Source of the DNA: Heterotrichella gracilis
Taxonomy: Eukaryota; Sar; Xanthophyceae; Tribonematales; Xanthonemataceae
Direction: 5' to 3'
DNA length: 64,000 nt
NCBI GenBank assembly: GCA_032358255.1
Contig: JAULBX010025830.1
Span: 183,697 to 247,696 of the forward strand
The number at the start of each line of letters is the position of its first letter. Positions within the stretch are counted from its first letter, which is position 1. The position numbers and the translations under genes are program-made. The notes under the pieces are model-generated. The model worked only from the letters and a program-made list of their open reading frames with translations, was not told the DNA's origin and searched no databases. Below are positions 52,301 to 64,000 of the stretch, piece by piece.

Positions 52301-54516
52301 CGATTTGTATCTTTTTACCTAGCTGGTTGCGCTGAGATACCCAGACATTACCTTGGGACCTATTTGTTGCGTATGAATTGTTTGCAGTAATTGACCTTGT
52401 ATATACATGCCATAGGGGTCACAGGCCTGGTCACGAGCCTAGTGGCGCTGAGGTCAAGGGCAATAAGATAATAATAGGTCATACTGTTATCTTATCACCG
52501 TTGCTGACGTACCTGGAGATGATGCGCTAGGTGCGGCTTCGGTGGGTGAAAGCAAGTTTCAGTGCGACGGCCGCCGCTTACCCTAAACCCTTAACCTGGG
52601 CCTTGAACCCTAAACGCCTGGAGCGGCTCACTACAGTAGACAACCTCACTGTGCCCCTGGGTCCATACCTCCAGTATATCACATCCCACAGGCAACCCTG
52701 CCTACCACCTCTCCTTTCAATAACACACCCTAAAATAACCCTATTACTTCTGTAACTATAGCGGCAAAGTGATTGCTCAAAAAGGCAAAATATCCCTAAA
52801 AAACAATTTGCTTCATGCGCAGGGCTTTGAGAACGTGAACATCATCCTCCAGTACGACGGCAGCGGCATCTACCAGCCCTGGCTCCTTGTGCAGATCATC
52901 GCAGCCAAGGTGCTGGCCACCAGCGTGTGCAGGTCAACGGGGCTGGTGGGCGGGCTGTACGCGCCATCCATCTTCATGGGGGCGGTCATCGGGTCGGCCT
53001 TCTGTGAGGCAGTGCAGGCGCTGCCGGACCCCACAGGTGCGGATGGGGGGTGGGGCGGGGGTTCCCTTGTTGGGTGGTTGGTGGTGGGGTGGGGATACCT
53101 GTGTGGGGTGGGGGTTCTCGAGGGGTGGGATGGGGTGTTACCATGTGCACGGGGATGGTGGTGGGGCCTGTATGTGTGGGGCATAAATGTTCATTGGGCC
53201 TGTCATTGGGCCTCGTTCTTTGAGACAGGGCAGGCGCTGCCAGACGTTCTCATCATGTTTAAACCCCAAACTCTTAACCCTAAATCTATTACCCACACAC
53301 CACTGACCCCCCTGTGCCGCCCTATGCAGGCGGGGGCATGCTTGCCATCTCGCAGCCGCAGGCCTACGCCCTGGTGGGGGTGGGAGCCATGCTGGCCGCC
53401 ACATGCAACGTGCCGCTCACCTCGGTGCTGCTGCTATTTGAGCTCACACAGGACTACACTATCGTGGTCCCCACCCTGGGCGCGGTGGGGATCAGTAACT
53501 GGGTGGTGGCCAGCGCGCGGCGGTCGGGGCCGCTGGCGGCGGCGCAGCCTGCGGGCGCATCGCTTACTGCGGCGGCGGCAGCGGCATCGAATGGTAGGGG
53601 AGGTTTGGAGGAGACGGCAGGTTTTCTGCTTGTATGAGTACTGTTGTGGGGCCCACTCTGGGCGCGGCGGGTGGGGGCACTTGGATGGTAACAAGTGCAT
53701 AGTGGGTTGGGCCGCTGGCGCTAATGGCAGAGGGATGCAAGGGTATTTCATAGCATGTGTTACTTGTATTAAAAATATTTTTGAAGCCTTGCAAAGGCTT
53801 CGTTCTGTACTGTACAAGGGACAATGGATAGTATGGTGATGCCCATGTCTGTCATGACTCCTCTTCACTATCGGACGCAACAGGCTGCATTTTCACTCCA
53901 TGCATGACATGTGTCTCGTTTTGCAGGCACTGGCGCTGCGCCGGCCGAGGGCAACGGGAGCAGCAACGGGAGCACCGCACCGCCCTTGCCCGACCTCAAA
54001 GCGCCGGTGGCCGCCAAGCCCAGGGGTAACATTGTAGAGGCGGTGGCGGTGGCGCTGGGGACGGTCATGTCGCCCCGCCAGGGCTCAAGTGTGGCCACCA
54101 TCGACGAGCTGGATGGGCTGGTTTTCGATGGCCTGGCCATAAAAACCCCCGGCGGAACCCTCCCGGGGGCCGGGTCCACCCTGCGGGACGCGCTGGCGCA
54201 GGGTGCGTGGGTGGGCGTGGGGTCGGGGGCAGGGGGGGAGCAGCGCTACGTGGTGGTGCTGGGGAGGGAACTGACCGCCCAGGGGGAGGTGATGGTGTCG
54301 GAGGAGCGGGTGGTGAACGCGTGCTTGATCGGGGGCGGGATCGTGGTACGGGAGAGCGTGCCTATGAGCGACGTGCTGCAGCTGATGGCGGGGTGCCAGG
54401 CGGAGAGTGCGGTGCTGGTGGATGCCACGGGGAGGGTGGTGGGGCAGTTCCAGGTGAATTTGGGGGGTGCAGAGGGGGTGCCCAATGTGCAGCTGACCAC
54501 GGTATCGCAGGGGTGA
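49314..54516 (+). CDS. CLC chloride channel/transporter, CLC-e/f-like
   Basis: Plant-type CLC family anion channel or exchanger. Phase-consistent exons: one ending 49750 (QASMDSYPPE), then 50159-50422, 50901-51343, 51642-51743, 52154-52273, 52823-53036, 53330-53593, 53927-54516. The first start codon is uncertain; ATG at 49314 opens a basic Ser/Arg-rich stretch that could be a transit peptide. Selectivity motifs: LGTGASLGPEGPSVEIGRAV (gating Glu in GPEGP), GFNAPISGVFFAVE, and GLVGGLYAPSIFMGA (GxFxP-like). The last helices hold MLAATCNVPLTSVLLLFELT. The 197-residue final exon starts Ala/Gly-rich and ends in a CBS-like segment (VPMSDVLQLMAGCQAESAVL). The first canonical motif (GSGIP) reads QAGSLIASLP, as expected of divergent CLC-e/f members. 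Its introns hold about nine exon copies. Confidence 0.88.
50055..50110 (+). repeat. upstream copy of CLC exon at 50159
   Basis: CCGCAG-AGCCCGAGGACGCCGAGGACG and CTGGTGGCCTGCATGATCGGGCTGCTGAC repeat the start of the functional exon, then stop at AAAACCCTAG repeats. The copy has an internal deletion. Confidence 0.9.
50510..50632 (+). repeat. downstream copy of CLC exon 50159-50422 end
   Basis: The run TGGTGCCCACCCTGGGGGGCATGGCTGTGGGGCTGCTGCGCCTGGGGTC continues to CCCAAAAAAG-GTGCGT and repeats exon end and donor, about 200 bp downstream. A short deletion after CCCAGTGTG breaks the frame. Confidence 0.9.
51425..51545 (+). repeat. downstream copy of CLC exon 50901-51343 end
   Basis: GCGCACTGACGGTGGCTATGG through GTGAGCCAGGCAGGGCTGGG and CGGTGAGAAGCTGCAGGAAAAC repeats the exon end, donor and intron start (about 51257-51362). 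Confidence 0.9.
51800..52105 (+). repeat. copies around the CLC 51642 and 52154 exons
   Basis: 51806-51856 repeats the end of exon 51642-51743 (GTGTGCGGGGCAGCGATGGC, TTTCTGTACACAAATGAGGT). 51890-51935 is a weaker third copy. 52069-52101 (CAG-ATGGCTGAGTTTTTCCAACGACACAAAGTAC) is an upstream copy of the start of exon 52154. Confidence 0.85.
52310..52455 (+). repeat. two decayed copies of CLC exon 52154-52273 end
   Basis: GGTTGCGCTGAGATACCCAGACATTAC and ATAGGGGTCACAGGCCTGGTCACGAGCC plus GTGGCGCTGAGGT echo the exon segment from ATAGGGGGGTTGGTCACTGG to GCGCTGAGGTACCCAGAGAT. Confidence 0.75.
53185..53720 (+). repeat. copies of CLC exons 52823-53036 and 53330-53593 ends
   Basis: GGGCCTGTCATTGGGCCTCGTTCTTTGAGACAGGGCAGGCGCTGCCAGAC (about 53197-53246) resembles the end of exon 52823. 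ACTGTTGTGGGGCCCACTCTGGGCGCGGCGG and GGGCCGCTGGCG (about 53640-53720) echo the exon 53330 segment. Confidence 0.8.
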
Positions 54517-55840
54517 GGGCGCAAAGGTGGCCCTTGAGGGTGTGGGGTGTAGCAAGAGAGGGTGCGCAAATGTGAGACATGGGCAATTTTTTGTGAGTGT
54601 GTTTAGCTGCAGATTGTGGCGGGGCTTTGGAGTGGGGGCGGGTGCGCGATATTGGTATTGGGATTGAGGGCTTCTACATATTGTGTTTTTCAGCCGTACT
54701 TGTCCCGCATGTACAGGTTAAGCCATCTGGTGTGCAAGGATTGTTCGTGCATCAAGAGGGACCTTGTTGAAAGAGACCTACTTGGGACTTGCAGCTTTGA
54801 GCGGCTTGTGAAAGACAGGGGTGCATGGCGTGTTGCCGCTGACGGTGGATGCATCCCACTCGAGCAATGGGTGTACTACCTAGCCATTGTCACACAGTGT
54901 TTGGTGAACACCCGTTGGTTAACATAGTGCCTGGCACGTGTGTACACTGTAGGGAGGGCAGGACTGTAGGGAGGGCACGGGCAGGAAATACCTGCGTCCA
55001 TGGAAATGGCTATCGTCACATGGTGCTGGCAGAAGGAAGAAGAAGAAGAAGAAAGAAAGCAAGGGAACGCACAGAGGCGTAGTTAGGGGGCCACTGGCTC
55101 GCATCAGGGCACCACACCAGCCAGAACGGCTGGTCAAGGTTAGGCCTTGAGGCATAATTAGCCAATGCACGCAGGCATGGCAGATAGTCTCCGAGGCCAT
55201 GTTTTATGTATGAGATTGTGTTCATGGTGGGTGAGCCCTGAACCACAGCACCCCTGCGCCGGTGTCGGTTGCGTAACCCGCAAGTCTTAGCAAGTCCACC
55301 CACCTTAGTGCTGCTGCAGAATGATAAAGCATTCAACCCTAAGCTAGGGTATTGCGGCCTGCATTCAACTTGATAGCCCTAACTTAGGGTTTAAGTCATC
55401 GCATGGACTCGTATCGCACCAAGGGATCCGGTCCAAAAATACGGCATCACGTTAAGGCGCTATGTATAGGTAAAGTGGAGTAAACTGAGTGCCCAAAAAC
55501 TATTCTCCTACAGCGATTTCGGTATCCTGTTCTGTGCCATCGATAGCGAACTTCGTGTTGTCCTGGTTTTGGCGCGTTATACCAGTACCAAGGCTCACCC
55601 ACAGCCTGTCACTTCTCACAGAAAGGCAGAAAAGCCTCCCCTGGTACCACCCGTTTTCCTGACACCCCCCAAAAAATCGCAGTGCTTGGCGCACAAGAGT
55701 AGTCAGCACCCTTTTCTTCCCTTTGCCATGTTAGACCCTGTGACACTTTGGGTCAGCCACGCTGCGTGTGCGTGTATGGGCCTGGTATAGCTGGTTCTTC
55801 CAAACTCAGCGATGCGATAGGAGACGGGGTCTGTGGAAGG
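54517..55840. other. intergenic, about 1.3 kb
   Basis: CLC 3' flank and upstream region of the opsin-kinase gene. The 103-codon frame at 54616 has no recognisable similarity. A purine-rich AGAAGAAGAAG run lies at about 55034-55062. Confidence 0.5.
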
Positions 55841-58800
55841 ATGCAATACGCAGAGGTGGCCAAGGATGGGGAGGAGTCGGGGCTTATTGAGGAGGATGCG
55901 GAGACCCTGTCGGCAGAGATAGACACCCTAGTGAAGCGGGCTGCGCATGGACCTTTTGAGCTGACGTTCACACTCACGGCAGTATGGTGCGCGGACTGAC
56001 TCTGGGTAGACCAGTCTTCCTGAGTATGCTACGAAACAAGCTGCGTATGCTTTGATAGCTACGTGCTGTACTCAACCGTGCTGGTTTGGTCACGCGCCGG
56101 GCTTGGGAGCCCCCTGCTTCCATCCAAAGCTTCCATGGCACGTTCTCAACACGCATCTGGGGAAGGACTGGGTTACGGTGGTTGGCTCGGATAGTAATTC
56201 GTTTCTTAATGCTGCACGCAAGTTGGGTAGGCTCCATCCGTGGGGAACTGTGGTGGCAAGATTGGTCATCCGAGCTGGGCGCAATGTCGTGGCATTCTGC
56301 CGTGCCAGGATCAACACTAAAAGCCACGCATCGCCTCAGCCTCGCCATCTGGCCTCGAACCAAACTTGACTTGCTGAAACCGTCTCTCCTGTCTTGCATC
56401 TAGGTTTCGGTGCACTAGTCTAGGCAATGCCCCTCTAGTGTTGCACCCACTGCTCAATCTCCTCCGTCCAGTGGCCTGTGTTGAGAAGAACCCCACTTTC
56501 AGCAAGCTGTGTGTTTTGCTAAATACCTGGATTCCCTCAACCTGCCTTGGTTTGGGCAATATGTAGTTCCCAGGTTATAAGCCATTCATGCAGTGTTATC
56601 CCACCAGAAAGGTGCTCACAGACCACGAGACCACCGTTCACCCCTCTAAACTTGGTCGTCTACCAACTCATGGCGGTGCACCCGGCCACTGTAGCTACCC
56701 CACCTGGGTATGTGCTGACAGTGTGCCCCCTTCTGCAGTGTGGGTCTCCTCTCCTACACAGCCTTTGCTGTGCACCTGTGTATGGGCAACCACGGGTTCG
56801 AGGTCAACAAGGAGTTTTACAAAACGGTGAGTGGTCCGTTGACCTTTAACGCAGCTAGCTGCACAAACACTGCCATGGTTGCGCATCCCCACCCACCCTT
56901 GCCGTCTCACACCCAGCCTTCAGCCTTTGCTACTTACTCTGTGGGTGGACCGCTGCGGTGCAACTCCGCAGGCAAACCCTGAGTTCCCAACCCCAAAACC
57001 CTTCAAACCCTCCTTACATAACCCGAACCCAGCCATTGTGTGCGCCCACCCATTGCACCACACCACTGGAACCTTAAGTCCCCTCCTCAGACCTGCAAGG
57101 ACACACTCCAGCGCCATACCCACTTGCATGACCATCGGCAATAACCCCATTTCCAGGCCCGGCACGGCGCCTACTCCAGCGTGATGGTTGGCTTTGCCAC
57201 CGCGCTGGTGATGAACCTGGAGAACCTGTTCTTTGTGCCCGACCCCTAAACCCTAAACCTTTAACCCTAAACCCTATACCTCTTCCAGGCCCCGCATGGC
57301 GCCTACTCCAGCGACATACGCACTTGCATCAACACTCACAATACCCTCCTTTTCAGGCCCCGCACGGCGCCTACTCCAGCGTGATGGTTGGCTTTGCCAC
57401 CGCCCTGGTTATGAACCTGGAGAACCTGTTCTTTGTGCGCCACCCCGCCAAGCTTCAGATGTGCGTGCTGGCGGTGTACATCAACGCAGTGGCCGCCAGC
57501 CACGAGTTCCTGTGCTGGCAGGGCTGGGCGCCGGTGGTGATCAACACCTTTGGGAGGGACATGCAGATCATGAGGTGGGTGGGGGGGAATGGCGGTGGGG
57601 GGTGGAGTGGGGAGGTAGGGGTGGGGGGTGAGAAGGGGGGAGGGGGGCCCCGGTATGCAAGAGAAGGGGCGGAGGGGGCGTCAACATTCGGCGCTTGTCG
57701 TCCTTGCATATGCCGGGATTGTATGTGCCGCCAGCTTTGGTGTCCAGGGTTTCAAATTGCCTACGCAGTTGGGTACCATCAACGCTGGGGCATCTGGCGG
57801 TAGCGGCGGCGCTGTGGGGGTGGCAATGGCAGTGGGGATGACAGTTACACACCAGCGTAAAAATCCCTGCCGTCAGAGACATGTGGTATTCACAGCTCCA
57901 CTCGTGACAACGCCCTGACTCTGCCGTTTGCAGATACGTGATGTGGGCGCACGCCACCCCCGCCATGCTGTACGCGCTGAGCATGGTGTCGGACTTCAGC
58001 GCTCGGGAGGTGCTGGATGTGGTGTTGGTGGATGTGGTGATGGTGGTGGCGGCAATCATGGGGGAGATGACCAAAGGTGGGTGGGCGGTGGAGGTGGTGC
58101 TGGTGCTGGTGGGTGTGGTGATGGTGGTGGTGGTGGTGGTGGTGGTGGTGGTGGTGGTGGTGGCGGTGGTGGTGGTGGCAAGCATGGGGGGAATGACCAA
58201 AGGTGGGTGGGCTATGGCGGTGGTGGTGGTTGCGGCGTTGGACGATGGTGGTGGTGGTGGTGGTAGTGGTGGGGCATCCTGGGTCAGATGGTCCATGTGG
58301 GTCGGTGGGGGCGGTGGCCTGCGCTGGCAGTGGGGATGTGTATATTGGCGGGTGTGGGTTGTGGCAGAACCCGCTAGGCGGGATATGTGGTTGAGGTTTG
58401 CCACAACCCAGCAGTGTGTGCCATGCATACCCATTGCATGCATGCCAGAGTATGCATGGAGCATACACATCTGCATTTATGTGTGCAGGTTATAAGCATG
58501 CTCCATCAGCATTCAAATACGCTGCACACAGGATACAACGGGGTCCTTCCATGGGAAATTCCAATCAAATACGCCGCACACAGGATACAAAGGGGTCCAC
58601 CCATTGGAAATTTCACGCACTCCGCTCCCAGCATCCCATCCCCAACCCCCACACTCTCGCCCTTTGCATCACTGCACCATGACTGCACCATGGACCACCT
58701 CCCGCGCAACACTCCCCCCACCCCCCACCACTACCGCCACCCCCCCACCCACCCACCCCCCACACCCCCCCGCCGCAGGTTTTCCTCAGCTGGTGTGGCT

Positions 58801-59832
58801 GGGCCTCTCCTTCGCCGTGTACCCCTTCATCTTTGTGCAGATGTGGGCCATGTTCACCGCAGCCATACGCGAGGCGCACGACCCAAACACCAACAGCGCG
58901 CTGCGGTCGCTGCGGGGCATCACGGTGTCACTGTGGACCACCTTCCCCTGCGTGTGGTGCCTGGCGCAGGGCGGGCTGGTGAATTCATACACGGAGGAGA
59001 TCCTGTGGTGTGTGTGCGACTTCTGCGGCAAGGTGGGTGCGGGCGGGGTGTAGGGGTTGCGCCCTTATGCAATCGGCATGCTGTAGCAGGAACTGGGGGA
59101 ATCAGCAGACCCAAATCCTTGACTGGGTAGACAAAAATGTGGGCAAACACAGCAAATGCATCACCATGGCGTGAGCATGCGGCGACCTGTTCCCTCCCCT
59201 CCTTGCAGGTCATATTCTCCTCCTCGCTCATGCACGGCAACTTTTTGACCATCGACCAGCGGCGCCTCATGACCATGCGCGTGGTGGAGGAGAGCCACAA
59301 GCTGCAGGCAAGGCGGGAGGGGCGTAGGGTTTATGCTAGGGAGTAGGGTTTATAATCTTGGAGGTCGGGTCTTTGCTTGAACCTGGTGCCAAACGGCAAG
59401 TGTGTGGTGGAGGGGCGCCACAAGCTGCAGGCAAGGGGGGAGGGTGTAGGGTGTAGGACGAGGGTCAGTTTTGGGTCGCGCTGTGGTTCATTTGCAACTG
59501 CACTTCGCCATGGATGCTTGCCTGCCGCCACACATGGGCCGGGGTGCAAGCGCACAGCACCCAGTGCACAAATTCCCAATAGGACTCAAAAGGGTCCCAT
59601 CAAAGCATCCTTGGTCAGTGAGTTTGGCCCGGACCACTCTTAGAAACCCCAGCCTCATCCCCACCCCCACCCCGCAGGTCATCCAGCAGCTGCGTGAGCT
59701 GGTTGACCAGAAGGAGCACTTCATCGCTTAAAACCCTATACCCTGGACCCTAAACCTCGTCCCCATCTTCCCCCGCAGGTCATCCAGCAGCTGCGTGAGC
59801 TTGTTGACCAGAAGGAGCACTTCATCGCACTA

Positions 59833-59864
<32 letters not shown>

Positions 59865-62800
59865 GATCATCGGACTGTCTGAGGGCATCCTGGGGGGTTC
59901 CTGTGGGGACGTGAGCGATGCGGTGCGTGTGTGTGTGTGGAGGAAGGAGGGGGAGGGGGGGGGGCGTGGTGCGCACATGTTGGAGATTGTGACATTGGTG
60001 GAAGGGGTAGAAGGGGTGGGGTGCCTTTTCCAGGTTCACGGGGTGTAGACAATGGTGCAGCACGGGAGTCCGTATTTACAAATGGGATCATTGGCCTAGC
60101 CGTGGGGATTCTGGGCGGGTCCTGCGGGGACGTCAGCGATGCGGTGAGAGGGTGGGGTGTGTGCAGCTGTGGGTATGGGTGTGTTGTGGGGAAGGGGGGG
60201 GGCGGAGGGGAAGGGTGCCAACATGGGGATTCAAGGCATGGACATTATGGATTTTGGAAGTGTGGCTAGAGCAATCACCGCCGACCCTATTTCCTAACCC
60301 CTGGTCCCTGCCCCCTGCAGGTGCAGTCCACGATGCAGACGGTGCGCAGCTCTGGGCTGCGCCTACTCAACCTGGTGAGCGACATCCTGGACGCCGCAGC
60401 CATTCGCCGCGGCAAGCTTGTGGTGAACAAGGAGAAGCTCAACCTGGGCAGCCTGGTGCAGACGGTGATGGAGGTGGCGCAGCCGCTGGCGCAGCCGGGC
60501 GTGAGGTGCGGCGTCGGGTGGGGCGGGTGGGTGGTGGAGGTGCATGTGCGGGTGGGGTGGGGTGGGGCGCAGGTGGAGGTGGCGCGGGGGGGGGCGTGAG
60601 GTGCGGGGGTGGGTGGAGTGGGGGGTATCCGGTGCTCGGGTGCGTGTGGGGTGGGATTGGGCGGTTGTAGAGGTGGCGCAGCCTGGCATGAGGTGCAGGG
60701 ATGCGACCCGCATCCGCTGGACTTATAACATACCAGTCAGCATCCACTGGTCTTACATGGTAATGCAAGCCCCCGCACAAGGGCCAAACCCCCTTAACCA
60801 TTCCCCGCCCCTCACCCGTGTGTGCACACCCACCCCTCGCCCGCCCCCTTACACCCCCTACCCCACTCCTGCCACAGGCTGAGCAACGCTGTCCCCTCCG
60901 GCCTGCCCCCCGTGTACGGCGACACCGCGCGCATCATCCAGATCCTGCACAACGTGGTGGGCAACGCCTGCAAGTTCACGCACCGCGGCCAGATCTGGGT
61001 GGAGGCCGACGCCAACGAGCGCACGCGCCTGGTGACGGTGTCGGTGCACGACACGGGGATCGGCATACCGGAGGACAAGCTGGAGGTCATCTTCGGGGCC
61101 TTTGAGCAGGTGGACATGTCCAAGGCGCGCAGGTGGGTGGGTGGGTGGAGGGTGAGGGTGGGGGGTGGGGAATGGGGGTTTGACTACGTTTGCCCCTCTA
61201 CTATGAAAACAATTACAAAATAGGGGAGGAACCCTGTTGCGCCCGCGGTTTCAGTGCCTGCAAAAGAGTGCGGAGATCATTGCACCATTCAGGTGTTAAC
61301 AGTTCGAGGACATAACGTCTGTGCAAGTCGGCTGCTATCTGGTTATAGTAAGTAAGTAAGTATTTGCTTTCCTGCTTTGAAGCCAGGTTATCTGGTTATA
61401 CTGCATGTTAAATAAGCAACCAATCGGCAGTGCCCTACACAATTGCCCCCCTTATCCCCACCACCTTATACCCTCACAGGTACTGTAATGGCAAGAATAA
61501 AGTTTGTGATTCACCTGCTTTCCAGCGGTATCGCCAGGTTAAACATGGCTTTTATGTGTGGGCCATGTTGTGCATGTATGCTGATGTGGCACAGGTACGG
61601 CGGCACTGGGCTTGGCCTGAGCGTGGTGAAGCAGCTGGTGGAGGCGCATGGAGGGACTGTGACGGTGGTCAGCCAAGTGGGGGTGGGGTCCTCCTTCTCA
61701 TTCACCCTCCAGGTAATGGCCGCAGTAGTGATTGGAAGGATTTTTACAGATTCTAAATCCTGAGTTGCTAGTGATTGGTTTATTTTTGCACATTTTTGCA
61801 ATTTATATTATTTCCATGTTTACATTATCTTGTAAATAAATCTTGTATTATGTGCAACAGCGTACAATTCTCAAACAATGTTAATTCTGCACCTCATACG
61901 CTGCTCCGCCCCTGCTGAGCACCGCGACACCCCCTCACCCCCCACCACCCCGCTGCAGATGTGGCGCGACCCCGACTCGCCCCCCTCTGCCTCCGGCCCC
62001 CGCAAGAGCGTTGAGGGGCTGCTGGAGCGCATTATGAGCCGATCGCTGCCTGGCAGCATCCGCACAAGTAGGGAGGATGCGCGGGAGGAGGCGAGCAAGC
62101 TGGCGCCGCTGGGGGCGCTGCGCCTGCGCAGGAAGAGTGGGGGGGGTTCCACAGGGTCTGCCGTGGGATCGACGGTGGGAAGGTTTTCCAGCGACAACAA
62201 GTGAGTGGTTGTAGGGTTTTAGGCTAAAACTTTTAGCCAACTTCAGCGTAAAGTTTACGGTTTAGGGTTTTAGGATTAAGGGCATGTGGTATGGAGGACC
62301 TCGAGTGACAGCAGGAGGGTCGCCCCGTAAACCTTTGGCAGGGTCCACTGGGTGATGACCATAGACCCTAACCACCCTGCGCAGGAAGAGCATGGGCGCC
62401 TCGATAGAGTTGTCTGGTTCGGCGCTGGGGAGGTTCTACAGCGACAACAAGTGAGTGGGGGAGTGGGATGTTTTTTTGTTAGGTGTAAATGGTGTGTGTA
62501 TTGGGAAACGAAAGTGACCTTCAAAATCAAGTTATGGGAAATTGACATTGCACACCCGCATTCAGCTTAGGTATATCATCAGTTAGCCTCTGCGCGTTCC
62601 CTTGCTTTCATCCTTTCTTCTAGGAAGAACTACCTTTCTTCTAGGTAGTTCTGTTGTGTTAATCACCGCAGGCCACCCGAGGGCTATAGGGGGCGGCTGT
62701 ATGGCGTGGGTGTGTGCGGGTACAGACCCCCCAAAGTGTCTTCCGCGCGCATTCACCACCCTGATACTATGCCTGGGGTGCCCCCCATGTGCACCAGCTG

Positions 62801-64000
62801 TGTTGCCGGCGACCCTCAACCCTAAACCTTAAAACCCTAAACAGTGCACACGTACACCACGCCATACCCTACAGGCCACCATCACAACCCTCGGCGCCCC
62901 GCCTGCATCCACAACCCCGCACGCCTGCCCACCTCCCCCCTTCCCATCCCCGCCACCACCCCTCCCCTTCAGGGTCGATGGCCGCAAGTACAGCGCACCT
63001 TCCACCCCAGCAGTGCTGGAGTACTCCGAGGACCCTGCAGGGGAGGACACCCTGCCGCCCACCATCGTGGCCCTGCGGGACACGCACTTCAAGCGCGTGT
63101 CCCTGGAGAGCACCCGCAGCAGCAGCCAGGCCCACAGCAGCCTGGGGCACAACCACAGCCTGGGGCACAACAGCCAGGGGGGCAACAATAGCCCGGGACA
63201 GAGGGCCGAGGGGCAAAAGGCCGAGGGGCATAAGGCCGAGGGGAATAAGGCCGAGGGGCAGGGCAGCCAGGGGCACAAGGCCGAGGGGCAGGGCAGCCCG
63301 GCCAGCGCGCAGGGGAGGCACAAGGGGGGTGGGGAGGAGCAAGCGATGGACCGGGCGCAGGCGGGGGGCGCGGAGGCGGCGGGGCGAGGGGCGGGGGCCC
63401 TTGCGACGACTGGCCAGGTACGTGTGGGCAGCGGCTCATGTGACTGTGCATCCTGGCACCTGCCCAACGCCTCGGGGTGCACCTGCCTCCACAATTGATC
63501 GGCCAGCATGTGCCGCAGTTCTGTGGAATACAGGGGCCAAGCCTGATTGCAATAGGATGTCTTTATGGGTGCACAACACCCATGGGTGCATCCACTTGCA
63601 GCTGCCAAGGAACCCGAATCCTAAACGCTGCACCTGCCATCCCTCGTGCAAGCAGCCAAAACCCTAAACCCTACGTCCCTCCCCCGTGCAGCAGCCAGAT
63701 GCCAGCCGGCCCCCCATGCTGTCCCATGAGCACTGGCACCTCGTGCACCAACCAAAACCCTAAACCCTAGGCCTCCCTTGTGCAGCAGCCAGACGCCAGC
63801 CTGGCCCCCATGCCGTCCTTTGAGCAGTGGCACCTTGTGCACAAACCAAAACCCTGAAGCCTAAGCCCTAAACCTCTTGCTTCCCCTGTGCAGCAGCCAG
63901 ACGCCAGCCTGGCCCCCATGCCTTCCTTTGAGCAGTGGCACCTTGTGCACAAACCAAAACCCTGAAGCCTAAGCCCTAAACCTCTTGCTTCCCCTGTGCA
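55841..64000 (+). CDS. histidine-kinase rhodopsin (enzymerhodopsin), 5' part
   Basis: Retinal photoreceptor fused to a histidine kinase. Exons: 55841-55986, 56739-56826, 57357-57574, 57934-58076, 58779-59032, 59209-59307, 59779-59922, 60321-60505, 60878-61132, 61595-61712, 61959-62200, optional 62385-62450, 62973-63417; about 779 or 801 aa before the edge. Eight helices are predicted: an extra N-terminal one (about 45-70), then a bacteriorhodopsin-like A-G bundle. Helix C reads [13 protein letters not shown] (Arg151; Met154 at the Asp85 site; Ala165 at the Asp96 site). Helix F has [16 protein letters not shown]; helix G has CDFCGKVIF with retinal Lys283 and Asp279. The kinase has the H-box [10 protein letters not shown] (His337), N-box [12 protein letters not shown]1 DTGIGIP, F-box FGAFEQVD and G2 [11 protein letters not shown] low-complexity KAEGQ-type linker follows. 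The exon 6 donor is GC (59308). Receiver and cyclase domains, usual in this family, would lie beyond the window. Confidence 0.9.
57157..57335 (+). repeat. two upstream copies of opsin exon 3 start
   Basis: CCAG-GCCCGGCACGGCGCCTACTCCAGC and on to GAACCTGTTCTTTGTGC (57157-57240) is nearly identical to the functional exon at 57357. A shorter copy begins at 57290 (GCCCCGCATGGCGCCTACTC). CCCTAAACC tracts separate the units. The first copy runs into CCCGACCCC-TAA, a stop. Confidence 0.95.
58107..58190 (+). repeat. GGT/GTG trinucleotide tract in opsin intron
   Basis: A long imperfect (GGT)n run within intron 4 produces spurious poly-Gly/Val or His/Thr reading frames on both strands. Confidence 0.9.
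59398..59445 (+). repeat. copy of opsin-kinase exon 6 end with its GC donor
   Basis: GTGGTGGAGGGGCGCCACAAGCTGCAG-GCAAGG repeats the functional exon end GTGGTGGAGGAGAGCCACAAGCTGCAG-GCAAGG (59281-59313). The GC donor sequence was copied too. Confidence 0.85.
59672..59745 (+). repeat. upstream copy of opsin-kinase exon 7 start
   Basis: CCCCGCAG-GTCATCCAGCAGCTGCGTGAG and on to AAGGAGCACTTCATCGC is identical to the functional exon at 59779 except at one or two bases. It then turns into TTAAAACCCTATACCC, giving an immediate stop just before the H-box. Confidence 0.95.
60075..60152 (+). repeat. downstream copy of opsin-kinase exon 7 end
   Basis: ATGGGATCATTGGCCTAGCCGTGGG through GGGGACGTCAGCGATGCG-GTGAGA mirrors the exon end at about 59860-59928, donor included. 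Confidence 0.85.
60555..60705 (+). repeat. degenerate copies of opsin-kinase exon 8 end
   Basis: GGAGGTGGCG...GGGCGTGAG-GTGCGG (about 60572-60610) and GAGGTGGCGCAGCCTGGCATGAG-GTGCAG (about 60669-60698) echo the exon 8 end at about 60470-60511. Confidence 0.75.
62385..62450 (+). repeat. in-frame cassette copy of opsin-kinase exon 11 end
   Basis: CGCAG at 62380-62384 is followed by 66 nt ending GACAACAA-GTGAGT, the same end as exon 11 (62200). It enters and leaves in phase 2 and has no stop. It reads [20 protein letters not shown], so it could be a genuine small exon or an optional cassette. Confidence 0.8.
63688..63980 (+). repeat. three tandem copies of the next opsin-kinase exon start
   Basis: Units start TGTGCAG-CAGCCAGA(T/C)GCCAG at about 63687, 63781 and 63889. 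Each encodes [19 protein letters not shown] or a close variant and ends in CCAAAACCCT(A/G)A, a stop. The second and third units are nearly identical over about 100 bp. The window ends inside what looks like a further acceptor (CCCCTGTGCA), so the functional exon probably starts at the edge. Confidence 0.9.

Follow-up and report, generated by a model that had tools for sequence, protein, structure and literature searches.

Light sensors of algae have been described in which a microbial-type opsin is followed by a histidine kinase and a receiver. One of them, Cr2c-Cyclop1 (Cop6), is known from cDNA, with the residues K298, H352, T356 and G533; in the dark, its kinase transfers phosphate to the receiver, a reaction that is inhibited by light (PMC6284317). 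Cop5 (HKR1) of Chlamydomonas is a bistable UV-A/blue (ultraviolet-A/blue) receptor for which no cyclase activity was found in oocytes (PMC8006352). PMC7693036 lists trebouxiophyte members of the family, and two of the tabulated opsins, CsRh1 and ApRh1, are entered in its domain table under HisK-RR, not under Cyc. CsRh1, ApRh1 and Cop5 were compared by the tabulated residues of PMC7693036. Here, we describe an opsin-histidine kinase fusion gene in a stretch of 64,000 nt from Heterotrichella gracilis (GCA_032358255.1, contig JAULBX010025830.1, positions 183,697-247,696 of the forward strand), which is called the window throughout. The contig carrying the window has the working label C332, and genome searches covered the assembly of 68.5 Mb in 903 contigs. 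CsRh1 is presumably from Coccomyxa and ApRh1 from Auxenochlorella, an expansion of the prefixes that is our own reading of PMC7693036. Taken as a whole, the analysis makes it quite probable that the gene product is a histidine-kinase rhodopsin (HKR) that would sense UV-A/blue light, has its receiver on a second contig (C761) together with a helical and a Ser/Pro-rich tail, and would pass its output on by phosphorelay, with no cyclase in cis.

Thirteen exons at positions 55841-63417 (+), read from the splice sites of the window, splice into a single stop-free frame of 801 residues (Table 1). The exon phases join without a stop codon, and the first ATG of the exon 1 frame was taken as the start codon. 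GT is present at 12 of 13 donors and GC at the remaining one (59308), and AG at all 12 acceptors. Pfam analysis of the product detected Bac_rhodopsin (residues 95-291, 4.7e-27), HisKA (328-393, 3.4e-13) and HATPase_c (440-551, 3e-29). Hydropathy analysis showed eight peaks above 0.7 up to residue 330 and no peak above 1.3 in the remainder, which predicts a topology with eight helices. The retinal lysine is K283 in the motif DFCGK, in the last helix of the opsin, and the kinase has kept all of its boxes, namely H337, the N box, G1 (DTGIGI), F and G2 (GTGLGL). From K283 to H337 the distance is 54 residues, a Thr is located at H+4 and a Gly at H+181; the same distances are found in Cr2c-Cyclop1. 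In addition, eight helices and a long linker ahead of the receiver are shared with Cr2c-Cyclop1 and Vc2c-Cyclop1 (Vop6). The top solved-structure match of the opsin part is rhodopsin phosphodiesterase (7d7q, 7cj3; 2.3e-16), which differs by Glu at position 85 and by its phosphodiesterase output. For the kinase part, the best solved structures are other histidine kinases, among them 7z8n (3.1e-40), and give no closer indication of its role.

These results bear out part of an earlier reading of the same DNA (the original prediction), which had proposed a microbial-type opsin with the retinal lysine in helix G and eight helices, joined to a full histidine kinase core and distributed over at least 12 short exons with decoy copies. 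It had also held that the eight-helix part should match the opsin family, and a match to Bac_rhodopsin was indeed obtained. At the level of the genomic sequence, the fusion gene is confirmed as real.

A search of the assembly for Bac_rhodopsin, in which only the best candidates were scored, yielded four matches, two each on the window gene and on an opsin gene of contig C874. In this paralog, exons 2-6 are each exactly as long as in the window gene (88, 218, 143, 254 and 99 nt), 242 of 268 encoded residues are identical, and one opsin stretch of 10 residues is identical in both. For exons 2-6, our own Nei-Gojobori script yielded a non-synonymous divergence (dN) of 0.051 and a synonymous divergence (dS) of 0.746, and this dN/dS of about 0.07 shows, as far as the coding sequences tell, that the opsin pair is under purifying selection. 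Because the paralog shares the exon lengths and the residues at such a low dN/dS, a chance origin of the exon model is very unlikely. Kinase exons of the paralog were found on C862 (61-86% identity), and C793 was found via its linker exon (55% identity), so that the paralog is spread over three contigs (C874, C862 and C793), which are joined by similarity only. In the window gene, GC at third codon positions amounts to 0.84-0.90, compared with 0.73 for the opsin on C874. The exon 6 donor of the window gene reads CAG/GCAAGG at 59307-59308, and the paralog has GTACGG there. Intron 5 of the paralog (L006:3500-9250, C874) holds about 6 kb with similar ends, in which, judged by eye, the minus strand seems to code for a Ty3/gypsy-like integrase.

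The last base of the window is also the end of contig C332, in accordance with the proposal that the gene continues off the window. The contig ends inside a repeat array (Table 1), the first unit of which differs in places from the others. A genome search with one array unit gave three matches, all three on C332 (one first-look candidate scored). On C793, the exon that matches the start of the array units reads RVEAFFAPMVSFEEW and runs directly into a receiver. Because this counterpart leads into a receiver, the coding start of the array units appears to be a truncated beginning of exon 14, which would encode the receiver. In the paralog receiver (L070:871-2284, C793), Glu replaces the phospho-acceptor Asp (LLEIMLPG) and the acidic cluster is Asp-Asn-Asp; it may be locked or unphosphorylatable.

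When the assembly was searched with the C793 receiver, 60 matches were obtained: two on C793 (96-99%), two on C761 (65-67%), and 56 others of at most 38%. The C761 receiver (Response_reg, 3e-30) keeps the acidic cluster D-D-D, the phospho-acceptor Asp (LLD), the Ser, and the Lys in TKPF. C761 appears to begin inside the exon whose truncated copies close C332, and it resembles the window gene in carrying decoy exon copies and the telomere-like sequence AAACCCTAAACCC. By elimination and because of these shared features, C761 is likely to be the continuation of the window gene. A continuation into C376, C56 or C626 was dropped, as none of the matches to the receiver query fell on these three contigs and 54 kb of their sequence (L014-L019) contained no receiver at E-values up to 1. 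Thus, the receiver that had been expected next was found on C793, directly after the linker exon of the paralog, whereas for the window gene its placement on C761 relies on elimination and shared features.

Downstream, the letters were read for 2,400 of the 16,910 bases of C761 and for 2,400 of the 15,274 bases of C793. After its receiver, C761 contains a helical exon (VADQVGGDKSD...) and then a Ser/Pro exon, which reaches a TAG at 1717-1719. With a codon model of the window gene, no stretch of 30 codons scored above 0 in the 681 bases past this stop (best -0.7); with the same model, the highest-scoring windows in the C761 tail, helical and receiver exons reached 7 to 22. Guanylate_cyc matches at E-values up to 10 were located on C376 (two), C56 (one) and C626 (one) and on no other contig (three first-look candidates scored); these loci (L008, L009 and L010) are possibly separate cyclases. 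Searched exon by exon, C761 and C793 gave no Guanylate_cyc match at E-values up to 10. A query combining the C761 tail with pieces of the three cyclases of the genome also revealed no cyclase on C761 or C793, although the three cyclases were not shown to match each other and the power for divergent ones is unproven; it did recover the helical exon on C793 (57%). The nucleotide cyclase of the original prediction, which would have made the protein a light-gated two-component cyclase, was thus not found on C761 or C793 in exon-by-exon searches and the bases read. Among the Pfam families named there, Bac_rhodopsin, HisKA and HATPase_c were detected in the window product and Response_reg on C761, whereas Guanylate_cyc was detected on neither C761 nor C793. 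We lean towards a protein without a built-in cyclase, but do not regard this as settled.

Numbered as in bacteriorhodopsin, the compared pocket residues of the window opsin are M85, A89, T90, A96, E204, D212 and K216, position 85 being M154 in RYVMW. Position 194 falls into a gap relative to bacteriorhodopsin (it would be Gly263 by the offset of the published table) and was excluded from the count. At 85/89/90/96/204/212/216, PMC7693036 gives M, A, T, T, E, D, K for ApRh1 and CsRh1 and M, T, T, L, E, D, K for Cop5, so that the window opsin agrees with the former two at 6 of 7 positions and with Cop5 at 5 of 7. The remaining differences are Thr96 in both CsRh1 and ApRh1 versus Ala96 in the window opsin, position 194 not being comparable, and Thr89 and Leu96 in Cop5. 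In the same table, Met85 is common to Cop5, Vop5, GpRh4, CsRh1 and ApRh1, and Met85 together with Ala89 occurs only in the CsRh1 and ApRh1 rows. CsRh1 and ApRh1 also combine an opsin with a histidine kinase and a receiver, as the window protein probably does, with no cyclase listed. Cop5 has the order of opsin, histidine kinase and receiver too and, unlike the window gene as far as found, a cyclase domain, albeit one without key residues. The pair Gln85/Asn212 is present in Cop6, Vop6 and GpRh3 (PMC7693036), as a trait of these members and not as a published definition of two-component cyclase opsins (2c-Cyclops); the window opsin has Met85/Asp212 instead. Because Met occupies the main counterion position, as in Cop5/HKR1, the window rhodopsin probably senses UV-A/blue light. 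Ala89 and the failed cyclase searches led us to prefer the cyclase-free type over the Cop5 type. The resemblance to CsRh1 and ApRh1 would also hint at a trebouxiophyte as the source.

In the proposed mechanism, retinal on K283 would absorb light, most likely UV-A/blue, and the resulting change in helix G would pass along the 54 residues between K283 and H337. Autophosphorylation and phosphotransfer to the receiver Asp would thereby be altered. As far as the receiver, a relay like that of Cr2c-Cyclop1 is the most economical reading, and the light effect might have the same direction as in that protein. Because no cyclase was found in cis, the output would probably be relayed in trans to other proteins.

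Several points weigh against an HKR with its receiver on C761, UV-A/blue sensitivity and no cyclase. The gene model was read from genomic DNA alone, and C332 and C761 were joined by elimination rather than through an overlap. The UV colour is derived from one measured relative, Cop5, which has Thr89, and the preference for the CsRh1/ApRh1 type over the cyclase-bearing Cop5 type from one residue, Ala89; moreover, residue 96 differs from CsRh1/ApRh1 as well as from Cop5, and 194 lies in a gap. The TAG in CTCGTAGGT overlaps a donor-like GTAGGT at 1716, so that the frame could continue. TGTAA is the usual poly(A) signal of green algae; it is absent from the 2,400 bases of C761 that were read, which contain one AATAAA (at 2286). 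Lastly, exon-by-exon searches could miss a divergent cyclase.

Some of these points would fit a true 2c-Cyclop, in which the frame splices out at the C761 GTAGGT into a guanylyl cyclase regulated by light via phosphorelay. Domain order and spacing match Cr2c-Cyclop1, which has its cyclase directly behind the receiver, the apparent stop overlaps the donor-like motif with no TGTAA after it in the bases read, Cop5, Cop6 and others carry a cyclase in the table of PMC7693036, and the genome itself holds three Guanylate_cyc loci. However, the cyclase that follows straight after the receiver in Cop6 and Vop6 was not found for the window gene: in exon-by-exon searches, C761 and C793 gave no match at E-values up to 10 and none with pieces of the three cyclases, and the 681 bases past the C761 stop were without coding signal. 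In addition, no cyclase is entered for CsRh1 and ApRh1 in the table, and the pocket does not have the Gln85/Asn212 pair of Cop6, Vop6 and GpRh3. We consider a 2c-Cyclop unlikely. Far less probable is a decaying pseudogene, to which the partial exon copies and the contig break at the right end might point: all 13 exons are free of stops, dN/dS is about 0.07 over exons 2-6, the kinase boxes are retained, the decoys sit in the introns of the model, and the break is a contig end inside a repeat. As the splice model was drawn from genomic DNA alone, it might also have fused two adjacent genes, one for the opsin and one for the kinase. This is barely credible, because a single exon, exon 6, encodes the end of helix G together with the linker to the kinase and has been conserved in the paralog, the Lys-His spacing equals that of the cDNA-verified Cr2c-Cyclop1, and the exon phases join without a stop.

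With the window gene and its paralog read as HKRs, a pair of genes is added to the known family of algal light sensors, at least one of which combines Met85 with Ala89 in its pocket and has no cyclase that was detected. Should the cyclase-free form be real, it raises the question of where the output of the sensor goes, which is shared with Cop5. In the receiver of the paralog, where Glu stands in for Asp, nature provides a comparison for the phosphorelay model. Speculatively, and rather improbably, two HKRs without a built-in cyclase might divide labour, with a phosphorylatable receiver in the window protein and the paralog as a partner that is locked or light-only and that might join it in a heterodimer; the signal would leave by phosphorelay to other proteins, and decoy acceptors, serving as poison exons, may lead to isoforms that lack the kinase or the receiver.

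Table 1. Exons of the window gene and associated repeats (window coordinates)
Feature	Position	Strand	Content
Exon 1	55841..55986	+	N-terminus and start of extra N-terminal helix
Exon 2	56739..56826	+	Remainder of extra N-terminal helix
Exon 3	57357..57574	+	Helices A and B, approach to helix C
Exon 4	57934..58076	+	Helices C and D; R82-Y-V-M85-W, Met at counterion position
Exon 5	58779..59032	+	Helices E and F, first part of G; ends in DFCGK with retinal lysine K283
Exon 6	59209..59307	+	End of helix G, helical linker to kinase; GC donor at 59308
Exon 7	59779..59922	+	HisKA, H box, phospho-acceptor His337
Exon 8	60321..60505	+	Rest of dimerisation domain
Exon 9	60878..61132	+	HATPase_c: N, G1 and F boxes
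Exon 10	61595..61712	+	HATPase_c: G2 box
Exon 11	61959..62200	+	Linker start
Exon 12	62385..62450	+	Linker; 3' end repeats end of exon 11 (86% over 43 nt)
Exon 13	62973..63417	+	Linker with 15-nt repeats, KAEGQ-type
Decoys upstream of exon 3	57105..57313	+	Truncated acceptor and 5' exon copies, telomere-like repeats between
Decoy of exon 6 3' end	59397..59444	+	88% copy
Decoy of exon 7 acceptor and 5' part	59670..59727	+	98% copy; in-frame stop at once
Decoy of exon 7 3' part	60081..60154	+	78% copy
Terminal array	63658..64000	+	Units spaced 94 and 108 bp; acceptor, apparent truncated exon 14 start and telomere-like sequence; C332 ends inside

Local duplications are not confined to the HKR gene. 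With exact seeds of 16 bases lying 40-500 bases apart, 42 duplication runs were detected in the window, compared with 0 in each of 10 first-order Markov controls. The runs merge into 25 clusters, six of them inside the gene. CCCTAAA/TTTAGGG occurs 74 times in the window versus 5-12 times in five controls. A telomere-like site is present in 9 of the 25 clusters; rotation controls averaged 3.7 and came up to 9 in 11 of 2000 cases. This test is not independent, as the idea arose from the HKR gene, which holds four of the nine clusters. Partial tandem duplications cross exon-intron borders in this gene, some with CCCTAAA at the join (57105-57438, 59670-59828, 63658-64000 and L071:449-580); they could reflect break repair or feed poison exons. 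For annotation, the gene illustrates how decoy copies of exons and arrays of repeats conceal and fragment genes of this kind.

Two open reading frames just upstream of the gene (53908-54516 and 54607-54927) matched no Pfam family. Searches for relatives in viral contigs and prokaryote genomes gave 8 and 38 pattern matches, respectively, none of which was confirmed as a relative. Many receivers and kinases in long uninterrupted frames were observed, for instance on C1, C43, C111, C222 and C442, and the assembly seems to include bacterial contigs.

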